From Pseudomonas beijingensis (GTDB lineage Bacteria; Pseudomonadota; Gammaproteobacteria; Pseudomonadales; Pseudomonadaceae): 64,000 nt of DNA. A program made the position numbers and the translations under genes. The first letter of the stretch is position 1. Each line of letters opens with the position of its first letter. The notes below the pieces were generated by a model, which did no database searches, was not told the origin of the DNA, and saw only the letters and a list, made by a program, of their open reading frames with translations. Shown piece after piece: positions 29,868 through 38,411 of this stretch. The DNA lies in NCBI RefSeq assembly GCF_030687295.1, contig NZ_CP117425.1:3228001-3292000 (forward strand). Direction: 5' to 3'.

Positions 29868-30737
29868 TTACTCCTTGACGCTCATGTACTCCTCGGCCCA
29901 GCGGATGTACTCCTCGGGCTGGGTGTAGGTGTGGGTCAGTTCGGTAGCGCTGAGATCCGACGCCTGGGTGAAGATCTGCCGTTGTTCACGAAGGCTGTCG
30001 TAGGTGGCCTTGATCGCGGCGAAATAGGCGCCGTGGCCATCGATGGTCACGCGCACGCCCAACTCGGCCAGGCGCTTGTCGTCGCGCAACTTCGGGTTGC
30101 CATAGGTGACGAGCATCAACGGCAGCGTCAGGTTCTCGCTGATTTGCTCCAAGTGTTCGAAGTCCTGCACACCCACCATGCAAATCCCATCCGCCCCGGC
30201 ACGCTCATATTGCTGGGTGCGGCTGATGATTTCCTGGACCGGCAAAATTCCTGCGTTGGTACGGGCAATGATCGCCATTTCCGAATCGACTCGCGCCTCC
30301 AGGGCCGCACGAATCTTGCCGACACCTTCGGCCACGCCGATCAAATCGGTGGATTTACGCCCGAACTGGGCTGGCAGCAAAGTGTCCTCGATGGTCAGTG
30401 CCGCCACGCCGGCACGCTCCAGTTCGATGATGGTGCGCATCACGTTCAGGGCATTGCCGTAGCCATGGTCGGCGTCGGCAATCACTGGCAGCTGGGCCAC
30501 GCGACCGATACGGGTGGCCTGTTCGGCAAATTCGCTGAGGGTGATCAGGGCGAAGTCCGGCGCGCCCAATACTTGCAACGACGCGACCGAGCCTCCCAGG
30601 ATGCCTACTTCAAAACCCAGGTCGGCGGCGATGCGCGCCGACATCGGGTCAAACACCGAGGCGGTGTGGTAGCAGGTCTGGGAAGCCAGCAGTTGACGAA
30701 AGTTACGACGCAAATCTTGATGGGAAAGCCTGGACAT
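29868..30737 (-). CDS. Oxaloacetate decarboxylase of the isocitrate lyase/PEP mutase superfamily
   Basis: A 289-residue protein closely resembling the characterised P. aeruginosa PA4872 oxaloacetate decarboxylase ([70 protein letters not shown]). The metal-dependent enzyme converts oxaloacetate to pyruvate and CO2. Start [11 protein letters not shown] at 30737 has GGTGGA eight bases upstream. It is codirectional with the succinyltransferase operon but 142 bases downstream, so probably separately expressed. Confidence 0.9.
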
Positions 30738-30879
30738 ATGAGTTCCACCAATGGAATGGAAAGGCTTGAGCAAAAGTGTCAACGCCGAAAGATCCAAAGG
30801 CTATCACGTGGCAAGCGCAAAGATGATGACGAATGTGTATGGGCGATGCTGTTATGGCATCAAGCGAGACCATAGACCA

Positions 30880-31914
30880 CTAGGCCGCCACCGCCTGTTG
30901 CCCCTGCCTGGGTAATGCCACGGCGCGCACCGTGTCGCCCGGTTGCACTTGCAGGCGTTTGGCGGTGAGGCGATCGACCAGCAGGTTGTGGCCATGCAGG
31001 TGTGCGCGGGCGCTGGTGATGCGGCAGTTTGCCATGCGCCGGTTGTGAATCAGCCAGATCGGTGCCCGTTCGTCCGGGGTGCCAATGGCCAGGGTCAGCG
31101 CCTGACTGTCGCGTACGCTGCGGATCTTCGACACCGGTGCTTCGATCACTGGGCCGCCGTCGAAAATGTCGATATAGCCTCTATGGCTGAAGCCTTCGGC
31201 ACTGAGGATCTTCAGGGCCGGTTCGGTGTTCGGGTGGGCCTTGCCGATCACCGCCTGGGCTTGTTCGGTGAGCAGGCAGGTGTACAGCGGCTGGCGTGGC
31301 ATCAGCTCGGCGATGAACGATTTGTTGCCCATGCCGGACAACTGGTCGGCGTAGCTGAAATCCTTCTGGAAAAAGTGCCGTCCCAGGCTGTCCCAGAACG
31401 GTGAACAACCTTGTTCGTCGGCATGGCCCCGCAGTTCGGCAATGAGTTTTTCGCCGAACAGCTGGGAAAACTCGGCCACGAACAGCAGGCGCGCCAGGGA
31501 CAGCAAGCGTCCGTTGTGGCCGTGGCGTTGCTCGGGGTGCAGGAACAACGAGCAGATTTCCGATTGTCCGGACATCTCGTTGTTGAGGAACAGCGTCGGG
31601 ATCTGCCGCTGGATTCCCAGCTCCGGCGCCGAGCTGACCGTGACCCCGACCCGATAGTTGTACCAAGGCTCACGCAGCCCCACCGCCCCGGTCAGGGCGC
31701 TGATGCCCACCACCTGCCGGTCATCGTCTTCGAGCACGAACAGGTAGTCGGCGTCGGCACGTTCGACTTGGCCGGCGAAGGTCCGCTGGGCCCAGCGAAC
31801 GCGGTGGGCCAGGCGCTCTTCGTTGGCCGGCAGGCTGGTGAACCCGGGACCCGCGCAACGGGCCAGGTCCAGCAAGGCAGGCAGATCGGTGATGGCCACC
31901 GGACGGACAATCAT
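30880..31914 (-). CDS. Arginine N-succinyltransferase, AruG/AstA-like (beta-type)
   Basis: A 344-residue AstA-family acyltransferase (MIVRPVAITDLPALLDLAR, YLFVLEDDDRQVVGISALTG, LCSLFLHPEQR-type SEICSLFLHPEQRHGHNGRL, PFWDSLGRHFF, IDIFDGGPVIE). Family members transfer succinyl from succinyl-CoA to the alpha-amino group of arginine or ornithine; in Pseudomonas the enzyme is an AruF/AruG heteromer. The rest of the AST pathway (aruC, D, B, E) is absent here and the pair sits in an RpiR-regulated operon. It therefore looks like a paralogue with its own substrate. Last gene of that operon. Confidence 0.85.
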   Translation of the reverse strand: MIVRPVAITDLPALLDLARCAGPGFTSLPANEERLAHRVRWAQRTFAGQVERADADYLFVLEDDDRQVVGISALTGAVGLREPWYNYRVGVTVSSAPELGIQRQIPTLFLNNEMSGQSEICSLFLHPEQRHGHNGRLLSLARLLFVAEFSQLFGEKLIAELRGHADEQGCSPFWDSLGRHFFQKDFSYADQLSGMGNKSFIAELMPRQPLYTCLLTEQAQAVIGKAHPNTEPALKILSAEGFSHRGYIDIFDGGPVIEAPVSKIRSVRDSQALTLAIGTPDERAPIWLIHNRRMANCRITSARAHLHGHNLLVDRLTAKRLQVQPGDTVRAVALPRQGQQAVAA

Positions 31915-31975
31915 GCTGCAACTCCTTCATCGTGTCGGTCCAAACGTCGGTGCAGGCCATGGGATCGATTGAGGT

Positions 31976-32992
31976 TCATAGGGCAACCACCCGGATCCGC
32001 GCGCCAGACTGGATGTCCAGGGCGGTCAGCATGGCGGGCGACAGGGCCACTGGGCCGTCGGCGTTAACGTCCAGTTCGGCGACGATGGCCCGGTAGCCGC
32101 CGAGGCGCTCGTTGCTCACCAGGTACAGGCCCCGTGCGTCAATCTGCGGGCTCTGCCTGGCCGTGGTGATGCGACTTTGCGTGATGGAACGGATATTGAC
32201 GATACGGGCATGCAAGGTCGGCCCACCGTCGAAGATATCGACATAGCTGTTGGTCTCGAAACCCTCGCGTTCGAGAATGTCGAAGGCTTCCTGGCCGTCG
32301 GGATGAACCCGGCCGATGCAGGCCTGGGCTGCGGGCGGCAGCATGGGCACGTAGATCGGGTATTGCGGCATCAGCTCGGCGAGAAAGGTCCGGCTCTGCA
32401 AGCCACACAACCGTTCGGCTTCGGCATAAGGCAAGTCGAAGAAGTGCTGGCCGATGGCGTCCCAGAAAGGCGACTGGCCGTCTTCGCTGCTGAAACCGAC
32501 GATTTCGGTGATGACCGATTCAGCAAAGCGCTTGGGGTGGGCGGCGATGAACATCAGCCGGGCCCGGGACAGCAGCTCTGATTCCGGCGTGCGCACCCGT
32601 TCGGCGTCGATGTGGAAGCCACGCAGCAGCGTTTGCCCGTTGAGGTCCTGGCACAGGGATAAGGCGGGTACGCCATGCTGGATATTCAACTCCCGGGATT
32701 CGCTGGAAAACGGTCGGTTGCGCAGGCTGTAGAACGGTTCGTTGCAACCGGTGCTGGAGAGGATTTCCGAACAGCCGACCAGGCGCCCGGACTCCAGATC
32801 CTGCAAGACAAAAAAGTAATTCTCCGCCCCCGGCTCTTGCGCATCGACTGCGAACGAGGCGCACGAGTCGAGGATTTTTTCCTCCAGGCGCCGGGTATCG
32901 TCCGGCAGCGACGTGACGCCCACCAGGCTGTCACGGGCCAGTTGTTGCAGTTGCGGCAGATCGGCTAATTGAACTGGACGTAAGGCCAGCAT
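31976..32992 (-). CDS. Arginine/ornithine N-succinyltransferase, AruF-like (alpha-type)
   Basis: A 338-residue AstA-family protein (MLALRPVQLADLPQLQQLA, VGVTSLPDDTRRLEEKI, FFVLQDLESGRLVGCSEIL, SPFWDAIGQHFFDLPYAEAE, FLAELMPQYPIYVPMLP, VDIFDGGPTLHAR). It pairs with the AruG-like product to form the heteromer. Start at 32992 has CAGGAG eight bases upstream. The sequence departs visibly from my recollection of housekeeping AruF, supporting a paralogous role. It lies 110 bases downstream of the permease gene. Confidence 0.85.
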   Translation of the reverse strand: MLALRPVQLADLPQLQQLARDSLVGVTSLPDDTRRLEEKILDSCASFAVDAQEPGAENYFFVLQDLESGRLVGCSEILSSTGCNEPFYSLRNRPFSSESRELNIQHGVPALSLCQDLNGQTLLRGFHIDAERVRTPESELLSRARLMFIAAHPKRFAESVITEIVGFSSEDGQSPFWDAIGQHFFDLPYAEAERLCGLQSRTFLAELMPQYPIYVPMLPPAAQACIGRVHPDGQEAFDILEREGFETNSYVDIFDGGPTLHARIVNIRSITQSRITTARQSPQIDARGLYLVSNERLGGYRAIVAELDVNADGPVALSPAMLTALDIQSGARIRVVAL

Positions 32993-33102
32993 GGATTGCA
33001 CTCCTGTTCCAGGGAGCCCGGTGACTGGCACCGGGCTTGACGATCACTGTCGATGTCCACGCGTTGTCACCACGGCTGGCCGAACCCTTCGACCGCCGCC
33101 TC

Positions 33103-34452
33103 TCATTGGCCCGCCGGATCGGGCAAGGCAGTACGACTGCCGAATTTGTTGAGCAGGCACAGATAGACCACACCCGCGGCGATCCAGATCAGGCCGAGCT
33201 TTTGCGCGGCCACGCCCATGTTGTACAGGATGGCCGCGACGATCACGAAGCCGATCAGCGGGCAGATCAGGTGGCGAATCCATTGGCCGGACTGCTGGCG
33301 GCGCCAGTAGTGGTTGATGACCGTGATGTGCAGCAACATGAAGCCGCTCAGGGCACCGAAGTTGACCAGGGAGGTCAGGGTGTCCACGGCGTTGATGAAC
33401 AGGTAGCAGATCAGCAACGACAACACCGCCACCAGGTAGATGCTCATGTAAGGGGTGTTATGTTTCGGATGGACCTTGGCCAGCACCTTGGGCAGTTGGC
33501 CGTCCCGGGCCATGCCGAACAACAGGCGCGACACTGCCGCTTGGGAGGTGATCGCCACCGCCACGCCCCAGGCCAGGGCTGTGGCCACCGCGGTCAAGGT
33601 GGCCAGCCAACTGCCGGCCGCCAATTCGGCGATTTCATAGAATGCGGTGTCGGCGGACTTGAAGCCCATGCCTGCTGCCAGGTCGGTGGCGATCCAGGTC
33701 TGCACCACGAAAATCGCTCCCATCACCAGCAAGGTCACCAAGGCTGCCTTGCCGACACTGCGGCCCGGGTCGCCCTTGATTTCTTCGGCCAGGGTGGAAA
33801 TGGCGTCGAAGCCCAGGAACGACAGTACCGCGATGGACACGGCTTGCATCAGCAGGGCGAAGTTGAAGTGTTCCGGGCTGTACAGCGGCGCCAGGGTCAG
33901 TTGGCCGTGACCGGCCCCGCCGTGCAGGGCATTCCAGGCGTAGAACAGGAAAATCCCCAGCACCACCAGCTGTGCCAGCAAGAAAATGATGTTCATCCGC
34001 GCGGTGAAGGTGATGCCCCGCAGGTTGACGAAAGTCGCGCTTACCAGGAAGGCCAGGATGAAACCGACCTTGGGAATGTCCGGGTACAAATGGTTCAGCG
34101 CCATGGCGGCGTAGACATAGAGCAGCGGCGGGATCAGCAGGTAGTCCAGCAGCATCAACCAGCCGGCGATGAACCCGACGTGTGGGTTAAGGCCCCGCTG
34201 CGCGTAGGAATAGACCGAACCTGCCACCGGAAAGGCCCGGGCCATGCTGCCGTAGCTCAACGCGGTAAACAGCATTGCCAGCATGCCGATGATGTAGGCT
34301 AGCGGCACCATCCCCGGTGCTTCTGCGTTGACGTAGCCATACACGCCGAACGGTGCGATGGGGATCATGAAAATCATCCCGTATACCACCAGGTCTGTCA
34401 GCGACAGGCCGCGTTTCAATTCCTGTTTGTAGCCAAATGCCTCGATGCTCAT
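33103..34452 (-). CDS. APC-family amino acid/amine permease, PuuP-like
   Basis: A 449-residue inner-membrane protein with about 12 hydrophobic segments. The APC start KRGLSLTDLVVYGMIFMIPIAPFGVYG and SVYSYAQRGLNPHVGFIAGW are typical of putrescine/amine and amino-acid importers, with LGFDAISTLAEEIKGDPGRSVG the conserved loop. It probably imports the substrate processed by the neighbouring ligase, amidohydrolase-like and succinyltransferase enzymes. Substrate not readable from sequence. 73 bases separate it from the preceding gene. Confidence 0.88.
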   Translation of the reverse strand: MSIEAFGYKQELKRGLSLTDLVVYGMIFMIPIAPFGVYGYVNAEAPGMVPLAYIIGMLAMLFTALSYGSMARAFPVAGSVYSYAQRGLNPHVGFIAGWLMLLDYLLIPPLLYVYAAMALNHLYPDIPKVGFILAFLVSATFVNLRGITFTARMNIIFLLAQLVVLGIFLFYAWNALHGGAGHGQLTLAPLYSPEHFNFALLMQAVSIAVLSFLGFDAISTLAEEIKGDPGRSVGKAALVTLLVMGAIFVVQTWIATDLAAGMGFKSADTAFYEIAELAAGSWLATLTAVATALAWGVAVAITSQAAVSRLLFGMARDGQLPKVLAKVHPKHNTPYMSIYLVAVLSLLICYLFINAVDTLTSLVNFGALSGFMLLHITVINHYWRRQQSGQWIRHLICPLIGFVIVAAILYNMGVAAQKLGLIWIAAGVVYLCLLNKFGSRTALPDPAGQ

Positions 34453-34525
34453 GAGCCGTTTTCCTTTTCAGCTGTGTGGGTTGCGCTTGCTTGTTGTCTG
34501 TCGCTGGAAACTTGCCGCTGCCTAT

Positions 34526-35278
34526 CTACAGCAGAGGCGCCAGGTAGGCGCTCCAGGTCCTTACTCCCTCGGGGCTGCGCAACTGGTCATTGCGCACTTC
34601 GATCAAGACCGAGTCCAGGCCGCGGCCATCGCCGTGCACCGGGACCGTCATGTCGGTCAGGGGGTTGATCTTGTAGGGCTGGTTGCCCGCTGCCCGCAGC
34701 GAATGCCGGCTCAGTCCGTCGACGATGTGCTGGGCGTACTCCTTGGCTTCGCCGAACAGCACGCCGGCTTCCAGGGCGCGTGGCTGGCCGTAGAACACCG
34801 GGGTGAAGCTATGGATGCCCACCACGCGTACCGGCCGGTTGGCGGCCAGGCGCTGGTCGATCAACGCCCGCAACCGGTCATGGAAAGGATGGAACAGGCG
34901 CTGCTGACGGTATTGGCGCGTGGCCTCGTCCAGGTCGTGGTTGCCCGGGACCTGGTAGATCTCGCTCTGGGCCGGAATGCTGTCCGGCACATGCAGCGGG
35001 CGGTTGAGGTCGATCAACAGCCGTGAGTAATTGGCCGACAGCAAGGTCGCGCCGAGGGTTTCGGACAGGCGTTCAGCCAGGAGCAGGGCGCCGATGTCCC
35101 AGGCGATGTGTTCCTGGGACGCGGTTTCATCCAGGCCCAGGTCATTCAGCGCCACGGGAATGAAACGGCTGGCGTGTTCGCACACCAGCAACACCGGGTG
35201 ATCGGATTCCTCCCGGGTCAATCGATAGGCCGGCCTGGTGTAGAGGCCTGATTCAGCGCATTCAATAGATTCGTGCAT
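34526..35278 (-). CDS. N-formylglutamate amidohydrolase (HutG/FGase-like) family protein
   Basis: A 250-residue FGase-family hydrolase (VLLVCEHASRFIPVALNDLGL, HIAWDIGALLLAERLSETLG, YSRLLIDLNRP, VVGIHSFTPVFYG, VLIEVRNDQL). The EHA, HxxWD and IHSF-type motifs hold the metal-binding residues. Known members hydrolyse N-formylglutamate in histidine breakdown, but no hut genes are present. The start overlaps the glutamine-synthetase-like gene by 17 bases, so the two proteins are translationally coupled and probably act on the same intermediate, for example a gamma-glutamyl or N-acyl compound; this is inference. Confidence 0.83.
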   Translation of the reverse strand: MHESIECAESGLYTRPAYRLTREESDHPVLLVCEHASRFIPVALNDLGLDETASQEHIAWDIGALLLAERLSETLGATLLSANYSRLLIDLNRPLHVPDSIPAQSEIYQVPGNHDLDEATRQYRQQRLFHPFHDRLRALIDQRLAANRPVRVVGIHSFTPVFYGQPRALEAGVLFGEAKEYAQHIVDGLSRHSLRAAGNQPYKINPLTDMTVPVHGDGRGLDSVLIEVRNDQLRSPEGVRTWSAYLAPLL

Positions 35279-36614
35279 AGTGCTCGCAACGCTCGGCAGG
35301 TGAGAGCGCCTGGGTCAAGGCCAGCTCCTGGGCCTTCAAGGCGAAATAGGTTTCGGCCAGCGGGCCGGGCAGGGTCTCGAGCAGTGCCCCGCTGTGGCGC
35401 AGGCAGTCCAGTGCCTGGGCCAGGGTTGTCGGCAGGGCGATAATGCCACGGGCGCGACGTTGTGATTCATCCAGCTCATCGGGTATTTCATCGGTGACAG
35501 CCTGCAATGGCAGCCGTTGCTGGATGCCCAGCCGTCCGGCAATCAACAGCGCCGCCATCGCCAGGTGCGGCGAGGCGGTGGCGTCCATGGCGCGAAACTC
35601 CAGGTTGTACTGGTTTGCCAGCGGCTTGCCACCCAGGCTCACGGTCGGGCAGATGCGCAGCGCCGCTTCGCGGTTGCGCTGTCCCAGGCACGCATAGGAG
35701 GCGCTCCAATGATGAGGTTGCAGGCGCTCGTAGGACAACGGCGTCGGCGCCGTCAGCGCGCACAGCGCCGGCAGATAATGCAGCACACCCGCTGCCCAAT
35801 GCTGGCCAAGGCTGGACAAGCCATTGCTGCTGGCGGCGTCATGCAGCACCGGGTCCGCGCTCAGGTCTTGCAGGCTCAGGTGCAGATGCACGCCGTTGCA
35901 CACGGCATTTTCCGAGGTCTTGGGGGCAAAGCTCACGTCCAGGCCCATCTGCCGGGCGATCTCGCGGGTGATTTCCCGTACGTTCACCGCCCGGTCGGCA
36001 GCGGCCACGCCCAGGGTCGGGCGACAGGTGATTTCGTATTGCTGCTTGCCGTATTCGGGCAGGAACATTTCCGGTTCGACGCCGCCGGCTCGCAGGGCAC
36101 TGAGCAACCACCCGGCGAACCCGGCCTGCTGGCGCTGGGCCTGGAGACTGAAGGCCAGGCGATCAGGCTGCGCAGGCGTGGTGGCAAGGTTGAATTCATG
36201 CTCGAACGCGGCGAAAACCTGCAGGCCCAGTTCGCTGCGATAACGCTCCACTTCGCCCTGCAGCAGCGTGCGCGGGCAGGTGCTCCAGGGACGGCCGTCG
36301 GTTTCCCGAATGTCGCAATGAATGAAGTCCAGGGCCGGCGCTTGGGTGTCGGGCCCATTGTTGACGGTTACCCGGCTGGACAGGTCCGGCACCAGGCGCA
36401 GGTCGCCATAGGCGCCCCAGGGGTTGGTCGACGCGATGATGTCCTGGGGCGTCAACGCGCTGTTGGCCGGTACCCAGCCACAACCGGCGGTGATGTAGTG
36501 GGGCAATTCATCGCTGGGAAACGAGCGCCCGCGGGTCACGCCGATCAGGTCGGTGGTCACCAGGGTCGTGACCGGCAGCGGCGCGAGGAGGGCGGCGGCG
36601 TCGAGGTGACTCAT
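35262..36614 (-). CDS. Glutamine-synthetase-like ligase (PuuA/GlnA-type)
   Basis: A 450-residue GS-fold enzyme. Metal and ATP motifs are AAFEHEFNL, EYGKQQYEIT, NGVHLHLSL, an NREAALRIC segment in place of NRS..RIP, and the glutamate-site EFRAMDATASPHLAMAALLIAG. GS-like proteins outside nitrogen assimilation ligate glutamate to amines (putrescine, isopropylamine, ethanolamine). Neighbouring PuuP-like permease and hydrolases favour a gamma-glutamyl-amine route. It is four bases from the cysteine hydrolase gene (overlap ATGA) in an RpiR-headed operon. Confidence 0.85.
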   Translation of the reverse strand: MSHLDAAALLAPLPVTTLVTTDLIGVTRGRSFPSDELPHYITAGCGWVPANSALTPQDIIASTNPWGAYGDLRLVPDLSSRVTVNNGPDTQAPALDFIHCDIRETDGRPWSTCPRTLLQGEVERYRSELGLQVFAAFEHEFNLATTPAQPDRLAFSLQAQRQQAGFAGWLLSALRAGGVEPEMFLPEYGKQQYEITCRPTLGVAAADRAVNVREITREIARQMGLDVSFAPKTSENAVCNGVHLHLSLQDLSADPVLHDAASSNGLSSLGQHWAAGVLHYLPALCALTAPTPLSYERLQPHHWSASYACLGQRNREAALRICPTVSLGGKPLANQYNLEFRAMDATASPHLAMAALLIAGRLGIQQRLPLQAVTDEIPDELDESQRRARGIIALPTTLAQALDCLRHSGALLETLPGPLAETYFALKAQELALTQALSPAERCEHYARIY

Positions 36615-37255
36615 GGCTGCATCTCCCGCAAACGAGCGAGTACGGTGTCGGTGTCAGTGATCCAGCAATAGCCCTTGATCGCGTTCAGGCACGCCAGGTG
36701 CCGTTGTTCGGTGTAGGTGGCACAGGCATCTTCCACCAGCGTGACCAGGTAGCCACGGTCGGCGGCGTCACGCACGGCCATGTCGACGCACTGGTCGGTG
36801 ACGATCCCGGCGACGATCAGGTGCCGGGTCTGCAGGTTGCGCAGCACGTAATCGATGTTGGTGGAATTGAACACCCCGGAGGAGGTCTTGGGCAGCACGA
36901 TTTCGTTTTCCTGCGGCGTCAGCTCGGCAATGATCTGCGCCTCGGGGCTGCCTTTGGGCAGGTGCATGTCCGACAGCTTGTGGTCCAGGGAACGGTCGCG
37001 GCCATCGGCGGTGAGGCTTTCGATGTGGGTGTGCAACACGTTGTGCTGTGCATCTCGCATCGCATCGAGCAAACGCTGCTGGTTGGGAATGACCAGTTGG
37101 CGGGCCCGCTGGAGGAAATACTCGGCCTCGGGGCGGTGCAGGTGGGCATCGAATTGCGGTTCCAGCCAGGCGCGTTGCATGTCCACCAACAGCAACGCCG
37201 TGTGCTGGCGGGTGAACGGCAAATCCCGGGGGGAGCGGTGGGGGAGCGAGAACAT
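36611..37255 (-). CDS. Cysteine hydrolase, isochorismatase/N-carbamoylsarcosine amidase family
   Basis: A 214-residue protein with the complete catalytic triad: aspartate in ALLLVDMQ, lysine in VLPKTSSGVFNSTN, and cysteine in GIVTDQCVDMAVRDA. Family enzymes hydrolyse amide, ureido or enol-ether bonds. Start MFSLPHRSPR at 37255, three bases after the rpiR-family stop; the gene overlaps the next by four bases. It probably releases ammonia or a carbamoyl group from the operon's substrate. Confidence 0.87.
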   Translation of the reverse strand: MFSLPHRSPRDLPFTRQHTALLLVDMQRAWLEPQFDAHLHRPEAEYFLQRARQLVIPNQQRLLDAMRDAQHNVLHTHIESLTADGRDRSLDHKLSDMHLPKGSPEAQIIAELTPQENEIVLPKTSSGVFNSTNIDYVLRNLQTRHLIVAGIVTDQCVDMAVRDAADRGYLVTLVEDACATYTEQRHLACLNAIKGYCWITDTDTVLARLREMQP

Positions 37256-37257
37256 CC

Positions 37258-38112
37258 TTATTTTTCCTCCAACAGGTGCGTGTTGAATTCCGTGCGCAAG
37301 GCGTCGATGCCTTCCAGGCGTTCGGCCAGCTCGGGGCATTGCAGGGTCAGGCAGGCGATCAGGGCTTCGACCTGGGCCAGCGCCGGCACCAGGCTGTCGA
37401 AGGCCGAGACCGATTCCACCGGGGCGCTGATGATCAGGTCGGCCAGCTCGCGCAACGGCGAAGCATAGACGTCGCTGAACAGCACCACCCGGGCGTGCCG
37501 CGCCTTGGCCGCACTGGCCACACGCAGGGCTTGGGCCTGGTAGCGGCGGTAATCGAAAATCAGCACCACGTCCTGGCGCTGCACGTCGAACAGCCGGTCA
37601 GGTAGCTGGGCGTTATCTTCCAGGGCAAAACAGCCGGCGCGCAGCAATCGCAAATGGTTGAGCAGGTAGTGGGCCAGGAAGCTGCTGAAGCGCCCGCCGA
37701 AGCAATGCACCTGATGGCGACTGTCGAGCAACCACTGCACGAGAATGCGCACATCTTCGGGTTGGGTCAGGGCCTGGGTGTCGACGAGGTTGCGTTGGCT
37801 GGCGGCCAGGTACTGGCTCCAGGTATCGCCTTGCTGCAATTTGGCCCGCGGTTGCAACAGCGTGCGAGGGGAGCGCAGGCGATGGTCCATGTCACTGAGC
37901 AGTGCATCCTGGAATTCGGCATAACCGCCAAACCCGAGTTTTTTCACCAGCCGCACGATGGTCGGGTCGCTGACGCCGGCATGGTCTGCCAGACGTGACA
38001 TCGGACCGAGGCCGTTGCGTGGGTAGTGATCGAGCAGGGCACGTACGACCTTGCGTTCCGACGGCGTCAAAATCAGGCCGGGATCGGTAATCAGGTCTCT
38101 GAGGGGCGGCAT
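37258..38112 (-). CDS. MurR/RpiR-family transcriptional regulator
   Basis: A 284-residue regulator. The N-terminal HTH is LTPSERKVVRALLDHYPRNGLGPMSRLADHAGVSDPTIVRLVKKLGFGGYAEFQ, quoted here only by its landmarks TPSERKVV and SDPTIVRLVKKLGF; a C-terminal SIS domain (VHCFGGRFSSFLAHYL, DVVLIFDYRRYQAQAL) would sense a phosphorylated or small ligand. The start MPPLRDLITD at 38112 is preceded by AAGGAG at good spacing, better than the ATG at 38151. It heads the operon down to 30880 and a palindrome 60 bases upstream is its likely operator. Confidence 0.87.
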   Translation of the reverse strand: MPPLRDLITDPGLILTPSERKVVRALLDHYPRNGLGPMSRLADHAGVSDPTIVRLVKKLGFGGYAEFQDALLSDMDHRLRSPRTLLQPRAKLQQGDTWSQYLAASQRNLVDTQALTQPEDVRILVQWLLDSRHQVHCFGGRFSSFLAHYLLNHLRLLRAGCFALEDNAQLPDRLFDVQRQDVVLIFDYRRYQAQALRVASAAKARHARVVLFSDVYASPLRELADLIISAPVESVSAFDSLVPALAQVEALIACLTLQCPELAERLEGIDALRTEFNTHLLEEK

Positions 38113-38171
38113 CCGTGCTCCTTGCCTGGATGAATGTTGGTTTTCTTTCATAACTCCTGAAAACAGTATTT

Positions 38172-38189
38172 ATGTAGCTGGTGCTACAT
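38172..38189. promoter_or_regulatory. Palindrome upstream of the RpiR-headed operon
   Basis: ATGTAGC-TGGT-GCTACAT is an 18-bp inverted repeat with perfect 7-bp arms, 60 bases before the regulator start. TGTAGY..RCTACA palindromes are typical of RpiR-type operators; autoregulation is inferred. The rest of the 299-base gap to 38411 shows no riboswitch or gene I can support. Confidence 0.55.
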
Positions 38190-38411
38190 GTCCAGTGGTT
38201 TTTACGTTCCGTTTAAAATGCTCCAGAATTGTGCGAAAGCCTTGTAGGAGTTGGCCGCGGCCAGGTGGAACTGATATGTCAGTCGATACTTCTGGATATG
38301 TGGGACATAACGCCTTTTTGTCTCACTTATTTGATTTCGTATAAGGTGCTGTACAACTAAACCCGTGAATATCCCGCCCATGGGACCCGTTCGATTACCC
38401 GAGAATCCAGT

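Follow-up and report, generated by a model that had tools for sequence, protein, structure and literature searches.

In the Puu pathway of putrescine degradation, a gamma-glutamyl ligase, a hydrolase and an amine permease work together. A ligase and a hydrolase also cooperate in the gamma-glutamylation of ethanolamine, for which a PF05013 protein is the proposed gamma-glutamylglycine amidohydrolase (PMC9397018). In Pseudomonas aeruginosa, the PA5506-PA5510 locus encodes the ligase PA5508 (PauA7), the structure of which is available as PDB 4hpp and which is described as favoring bulky amines (catecholamines) over linear polyamines (PMC6478659), together with a permease, PA5510 (PMC9397018). A table of the Crc regulon lists PA5508 and PA5510 (PMC6235884), PAO1 overexpresses PA5506-PA5509 with every plasmid tested but pAMBL1 (PMC6246594), and PA5507/PA5509 are altered in an nrdR mutant (PMC4409342); the excerpts of the literature that mention the locus concern expression, regulation, substrate panels or gene replacement, and name no physiological substrate. 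Here we analyze a related locus of Pseudomonas beijingensis within a 64,000-nucleotide stretch of contig NZ_CP117425.1 (hereafter, the window), where the open reading frame (ORF) listing places seven consecutive genes on the minus strand (30880-38151): rpiR, ich, gs, fga and a permease gene, referred to below as the core, followed by aruF2 and, last, aruG2 (together, aruFG2).

We propose that the core yields ornithine from an alpha-amino lactam or amide, for which ornithine delta-lactam (3-amino-2-piperidone) is the likeliest candidate, and that AruF2 and AruG2 would then succinylate this ornithine, a reading to which we assign a probability of roughly 0.4. The APC permease would import the substrate, Gs would use ATP to join the gamma-carboxyl of glutamate to the substrate amine, Ich would cleave the lactam or amide bond of the glutamylated compound, and Fga would split the gamma-glutamyl amide into glutamate and ornithine. 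Ornithine would then enter the arginine succinyltransferase (AST) route, with AruF2-AruG2 producing N2-succinylornithine, degradable by the housekeeping enzymes AruC, AruD and AruE. As judged from gene content and neighborhood, the product of the core is probably ornithine, and its substrate probably an alpha-amino lactam or amide. The most specific version, which we advance more tentatively, is a so far undescribed gamma-glutamylation pathway for alpha-amino lactams that would salvage ornithine lactam, Ich opening the delta-lactam ring of gamma-glutamyl-3-amino-2-piperidone. Ornithine lactam is the best candidate substrate because it joins the two lines of evidence presented below, from ornithine consumers and from a racemase, and because 3-amino-2-piperidone is a known natural metabolite, the delta-lactam of ornithine (PMC8678452, PMC8960770). 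Across clusters, the gamma-glutamyl ligase and the PF05013 hydrolase form the constant pair and the middle enzyme varies, so that Ich, the middle enzyme here, probably works on the substrate once it is glutamylated.

A search with ich at E<=1e-60 over 298 genomes of the family gave 40 matches, corresponding to the window, 20 further loci of the same genus, 18 of genus g9 and one of genus g3, and all 39 non-window matches were fetched. In the 20 same-genus loci, aruF2 and aruG2 followed the permease gene and the full seven-gene order was kept (20/20), so that the order is not due to chance; the preliminary description of this DNA had suggested such a synteny search. The order rpiR-ich-gs-fga-permease was likewise found in 18/18 g9 loci, none of which carried aruFG2. 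Instead, a homologue of ornithine cyclodeaminase (Ocd) lies after the permease gene, on the same strand, in 12 of the 18. Within the genus of the window, Ocd follows the core in one locus (L177, genome G172), where it scores 455 bits against the P. putida ornithine cyclodeaminase (1u7h/1x7d), and the NF005762 cut-off (350) was passed by Ocd of L177 (567 bits), L048 (564) and L074 (582). Ocd homologues (E<=1e-110) were present in 53 of the 298 genomes. The clade with at least 90% identity comprised 12 genomes, all of them g9 core carriers in which the gene adjoins the core, while the other 41 genomes (59-69%) included seven core carriers with an unlinked copy (G083, G331, G357, G361, G438, G451 and G455). 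In the rhizobial core loci, Ocd (55-57%) was detected in just 2 of 28 (L074 and L076), about 9 kb from gs and behind divergent ABC transporter genes, a low count that slightly lowers the probability of the proposed reading. These 28 loci are L061, L062, L064, L070, L074-L078, L080 and 18 of L203-L222, several of those without Ocd being cut by stretch ends; L217 had a 31% relative only. The window genome itself contains an OCD-superfamily (PF02423) gene at 405818-406687 and a second match at 3532111-3533089 in two adjacent pieces, perhaps a disrupted gene.

The second line of evidence comes from alphaproteobacteria. In Shinella, the rpiR-ich-gs-fga cluster ends in a gene annotated as "aspartate aminotransferase family", which shares 4 bp with the 3' end of fga and whose product has 84.0% identity (432 aa aligned) to the alpha-amino-epsilon-caprolactam (ACL) racemase of A. 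obae (2zuk/3dxv), an enzyme with a long history in lysine production; the versions of S. meliloti and Pantoea are 53% and 47% identical to the A. obae enzyme. A true aminotransferase, as the label "class III aminotransferase" would have it, was rejected, as the nearest solved relatives are ACL racemases. In family f51, which from its Ensifer- and Shinella-like members we take to be the alphaproteobacterial Rhizobiaceae, the racemase homologue (E<=1e-100) was present in 23/247 genomes, represented by 20 stretches plus G652, G761 and G784. It was accompanied by gs, rpiR and an ich of either of two types in 21 of the 23 (18/20 and 3/3) and by fga in 20 (17/20 and 3/3), these genomes being related and the counts uncorrected for kinship. 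The exceptions were L210, without an fga match, and L218 and L220, without gs and fga; the genome from which L220 derives (G532) carries the core elsewhere, without the racemase (L077). Since gene orders differ among f51 subgroups, the linkage does not reflect a single copied block. The window genome has no ACL racemase orthologue, its own matches being only 28-37% identical. Besides its name-giving substrate, ACL racemase (EC 5.1.1.15) accepts alpha-amino-delta-valerolactam, which is ornithine lactam. A broad range that takes in alpha-amino-epsilon-caprolactam and many amino acid amides is described in PMC7431475, the excerpts of which name no natural pathway for the enzyme.

This range also bears on an alternative that we consider improbable, in which the substrate of the core is not a lactam but the linear amide of an alpha-amino acid, such as ornithinamide or argininamide, degraded by the same steps in the same order. 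We know of no clear natural source of ornithinamide-like amides, which counts against it, as does the detection of ornithine lactam as a natural metabolite. The activity of the racemase on many amides would nevertheless suit a linear substrate, the amino acid amide racemase of PDB 6gio is likewise a close relative of the racemase homologue, and Ich resembles linear-amide hydrolases; between linear amide and lactam, the sequence data give no discrimination.

Outside these groups the core is less uniform. In the g3 locus (L089), rpiR-ich-gs-fga is joined by an ABC transporter of the branched-chain type and by a homologue of the racemase, 68% identical to that of S. meliloti. In a phylum-level sample searched with ich at E<=1e-40, 19 of 398 genomes had a match, 15 of them outside the family, of which 14 were fetched (G839 was left out). 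Incomplete sets outside the family included L082 and L088, with gs and an ich of the S. meliloti type (ich_sm) only, and L083, without an fga match within the stretch. Two loci (L079 and L084, from G652 and G655) have rpiR and a second ich-like gene 68-70% identical to ich_sm, no gs or fga match, and an ArgE/DapE-type deacylase with an ABC transporter, perhaps a ligase-free variant. A plasmid of Roseomonas mucosa (L063:6029-10030) has ich-gs-fga followed, in the place of the racemase, by an ArgE/DapE-family deacylase (TIGR01910, 230.6 bits, cut-off 217.6). FGase genes were also seen directly 5' of eutB-eutC (ethanolamine ammonia-lyase) on Agrobacterium plasmid pAoF64/95 (L069:7929-11100) and directly 5' of a phnF-phnJ C-P lyase operon on Nitratireductor pOM-1 (L067:7926-16678).

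Pyoverdine contains an N-hydroxyornithine lactam. TonB receptor genes adjoin two plasmid loci, and one sits behind aruG2 in L182; in a search of the unassigned ORFs of 18 loci and L072, where ORF calling misses some genes, the two plasmid receptors had no homologue, and a siderophore link remains speculation.

The window genome has four AstA genes: besides aruF2/aruG2, two more lie at about 683.7-685.8 kb. These belong to a complete aruC-aruF-aruG-aruD-aruB-aruE operon (about 682-690 kb), each gene of which exceeds its AST-family NCBIfam cut-off. The preliminary description had asked for a separate aruCFGDBE operon, the lack of which would have refuted its reading, and the presence of this operon excludes aruF2/aruG2 as the housekeeping AST genes. 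Among 199 genomes of the genus, fga was present in 48 and an aruG2-type gene (at least 74% identity) in 57, with both in 44, fga alone in 4, aruG2 alone in 13 and neither in 138 (Fisher test; p ~1e-27, relatedness of genomes not corrected for). The distance between fga and aruG2 is no more than 6 kb in 44 of the 48 genomes with fga, counting G061 with its aruG2 copy at 68%; the core lacks a linked aruFG2 in G048, G059, G073 and G172, the last of which has its core located elsewhere and aruFG2 alone in the slot. In G153 (locus L045), fga-aruF2-aruG2 is kept and ich, gs and permease are lost. The same arrangement, with fga beside aruF2-aruG2 and ich, gs and permease gone, is seen in P. agronomica (L043), where an rpiR remnant of 37 residues persists, L045 being from P. 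brassicacearum subsp. neoaurantiaca.

The 13 genomes with aruG2 alone all retain aruF2, aruG2 and a gene of the isocitrate-lyase superfamily without the core, in 12 of them with a cobC-like gene on the opposite flank (the 13th stretch stops short of the cobC position). They thereby speak for an alternative that we regard as rather unlikely, in which aruFG2 and the isocitrate-lyase-superfamily gene form an independent unit that acts on another acyl acceptor, outside the core pathway and compatible with any core substrate. The upstream element of aruF2, conserved with and without the core (see below), points the same way, and AruF2 stays below the arginine/ornithine succinyltransferase alpha-subunit cut-off of TIGR03245 (410 bits vs 458.8, compared with 552.5 for the housekeeping AruF). 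AruG2, on the other hand, passes the TIGR03244 equivalog cut-off (446.8 bits vs 391), the AstA domain (PF04958) is recognized in AruF2 and AruG2 with 414.9 and 384.8 bits, and most invariant columns are retained (133 in F and 147 in G shared with housekeeping AruFG, 25 and 21 being set-specific). In an AruF+AruG tree (68 rows, quick method, L178 on a long branch), aruFG2 formed a clade distinct from the 21 housekeeping rows (SH-aLRT 100). Within this clade, every one of the deepest branches carries the core, and four label changes are needed to account for the 15 core-less rows. Core loss would thus account for the separate copies, and the simplest history would be that core and aruFG2 were joined once and the core was then lost several times. 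The isocitrate-lyase-superfamily gene adjoins aruG2 in many loci, not all, and is a candidate member of the pathway only.

The features of the locus are collected in Table 1. The ORF listing covered 28-41.5 kb of the window, and nine proteins (29.9-39 kb) were scanned against Pfam and NCBIfam profiles. All seven genes of the RpiR-headed run announced by the preliminary description were recovered, together with its two overlaps (ich/gs, 36611-36614; gs/fga, 35262-35278). The ORFs listed for ich and aruF2 span 36611-37339 and 31976-33031, with likelier ATG starts at 37255, which abolishes the apparent overlap with rpiR, and at 32992.

Table 1. Features of the P. beijingensis locus (window coordinates).
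Feature	Assignment	Position	Strand	Basis
rpiR operator	Predicted RpiR operator, perfect inverted repeat ATGTAGC-N4-GCTACAT	38172-38189	-	Sequence; operator role inferred
rpiR	MurR/RpiR-family regulator, HTH_6 + SIS	37258-38151	-	Pfam over cut-off, NCBIfam
ich	Isochorismatase-family cysteine hydrolase, predicted lactam/amide hydrolase	36611-37255	-	PF00857
gs	Glutamine-synthetase-like gamma-glutamyl ligase, PA5508/PauA7 type	35262-36614	-	PF00120/PF16952 (Gln-synt_C, Gln-synt_N_2), PDB 4hpp
fga	FGase-like hydrolase, predicted gamma-glutamyl amidohydrolase	34526-35278	-	PF05013, PDB 2odf match
permease	APC-family amino acid permease, predicted substrate uptake, PA5510 position	33103-34452	-	PF00324/PF13520, synteny
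aruF2	Arginine/ornithine succinyltransferase alpha-subunit paralogue	31976-32992	-	PF04958 (AstA), TIGR03245, tree
aruG2	Arginine/ornithine succinyltransferase beta-subunit paralogue	30880-31914	-	PF04958 (AstA), TIGR03244, tree
Gene 3' of aruG2	Isocitrate-lyase/PEP-mutase superfamily	29868-30797	-	PF13714

The Pfam assignments of all seven proteins (AA_permease in the case of the permease) exceed their cut-offs. No NCBIfam equivalog name was obtained for Gs, Fga, Ich or the permease. Fga belongs to the FGase superfamily, as indicated by its score against PF05013 (137.3 bits, gathering score 28.9), and does not reach the cut-off of the HutG model TIGR02017 (32.7 bits vs 278.75); the closest fga copies in named loci are those of P. 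zanjanensis, P. thivervalensis, P. brassicacearum and P. kilonensis (95-98%). Against PDB 4hpp, Gs scores 625 bits across residues 10-450; it falls short of the PuuA model NF045547 (269.7 bits, cut-off 650). Hut and puu pathways were rejected because Fga and Gs score so far under the respective models. The permease, previously called PuuP-like, is not specifically so, its best NCBIfam models being TIGR00909 and BcaP, both far under cut-off. A polyamine route was discarded as well, PA5508 being reportedly not polyamine-induced (PMC6478659, citing Yao 2011).

Of the characterized proteins, triuret/biuret hydrolases and RutB are closest to Ich in sequence. Among the structures that Foldseek ranked high, its predicted model aligns with several C-N hydrolases, including maleamate amidase, biuret hydrolase and RutB. 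Residues D25, K123 and C156, which we take to be the Asp-Lys-Cys triad of isochorismatase-like cysteine hydrolases, are invariant in the Ich alignment. These relatives would suit a ureido substrate of the core, citrulline or a related compound, from which Ich, as a ureidohydrolase, would release ornithine in parallel to CtlX, and the genes adjoining ctlX in citrulline users, aruG or ocd (PMC9007349), are the same two ornithine consumers as those beside the core. However, Ich is far under the NCBIfam cut-offs for biuret hydrolase (87.8 bits of 370) and RutB (74.1 of 377.95), and a ureido substrate leaves unexplained both the ACL racemase of the alphaproteobacterial clusters and the gamma-glutamyl ligase and hydrolase, so that we hold it to be very improbable.

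The reported preference of PA5508 for catecholamines and aromatic amines (PMC6478659, PMC11335346) would agree with degradation or detoxification of a bulky or aromatic monoamine, aruFG2 and Ocd being unrelated neighbors, and so would the separability of aruFG2, with its own upstream element. We judge this distinctly improbable: the core is without an oxidase or dehydrogenase, and the racemase and two types of ornithine consumer would have to be chance neighbors in several lineages. The taste of PA5508 for bulky amines also fits an aminolactam, which is a compact ring amine and not a linear polyamine.

The 18-bp palindrome listed in Table 1 sits 20 nt ahead of the rpiR start codon, flanked by a -35-like TGGACA and a -10-like AATACT. 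TGTAG-N6-CTACA occurs once in the window (mean of 0.00 in 100 shuffles), and ATGTAGC-N4-GCTACAT has a single exact copy genome-wide. Aligned same-genus loci have a perfect or near-perfect palindrome 5' of rpiR; in aligned g9 loci the match is weaker or the spacing differs. This palindrome is probably the site from which RpiR represses the core. General scans were near chance level for promoter-like (2 observed vs 1.9 expected) and terminator-like sites (9 vs 6.4). A conserved element, CGACAGTGAT[A/C]GTCA.G, was found 5' of aruF2 (32993-33102) in core-bearing and core-less loci, and the sequence 5' of aruF2 is similar across six loci of each kind; as this upstream stretch is alike with and without the core, aruFG2 is probably driven by its own promoter, and the seven genes probably form two transcription units rather than one.

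That the locus is a single undivided and undescribed operon, as the preliminary description had assumed, is not supported: its five-gene core corresponds to PA5506-PA5510, with a ligase of known structure and published preferences, and aruFG2 is separable, occurring without fga in 13/199 genomes. Its other suggestion, arginine-family catabolism via glutamyl and probably succinyl intermediates, gains support, and our reading would narrow the compound to one of the alpha-amino lactams or amides from which ornithine can be formed. A literature search for the gene combination gave no paper with at least four of its five terms, and in a further search "caprolactam racemase" was absent among the matches listed. 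The proposal links PA5506-PA5510 and ACL racemase in a single hypothesis, testable with a small defined compound. If it is true, a cysteine hydrolase would open a delta-lactam bond, the high stability of which has been described (PMC11033972), and alpha-amino lactams would join the known substrates of gamma-glutamylation pathways.

Among known systems, PA5506-PA5510 is like the window core in its rpiR-ich-gs-fga-permease order (PA7, locus L047), from which PA5507 would correspond to ich and PA5509 to fga; gs of PA7 and g9 loci is 64-66% identical to that of the window, and this type differs in its ornithine consumer, as described above for g9. The CtlX-aruFG and CtlX-ocd citrulline clusters likewise couple a hydrolase to aruFG or ocd, without any gamma-glutamyl ligase described together with CtlX (PF02274) in the excerpts of PMC9007349. 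Racemase homologues related to the A. obae enzyme of the ACL racemase/amidase processes are encoded with the core in f51 and have no orthologue in the window genome; the industrial partner hydrolases are different enzymes (PMC7431475). The Puu pathway shares the logic of ligase, hydrolase and permease, but the seven window genes include no oxidase or dehydrogenase, and their ligase is far from PuuA. The ethanolamine pathway (GlnA4/Chromohalobacter type) shares a glutamine-synthetase-like ligase and a PF05013 hydrolase with the core. Clusters resembling its operons, with RpiR, FGase, transporter, glutamine-synthetase-like, aldehyde dehydrogenase (ALDH) and iron-containing alcohol dehydrogenase (Fe-ADH) genes, were found in R. 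leguminosarum pSK03 (L065) and on a plasmid of Ruegeria B32 (L066), with 44% and 42% identity to the window in fga and 26% and 25% in gs. They have Fe-ADH and ALDH where the window core has its isochorismatase-family hydrolase; neither enzyme was found among the nine proteins scanned at 29.9-39 kb. The gamma-glutamylation pathway type and the PA5508 structure are thus known, and what is new here is the proposal of a lactam or amide substrate and the association of the core with ornithine consumers and ACL racemase homologues.

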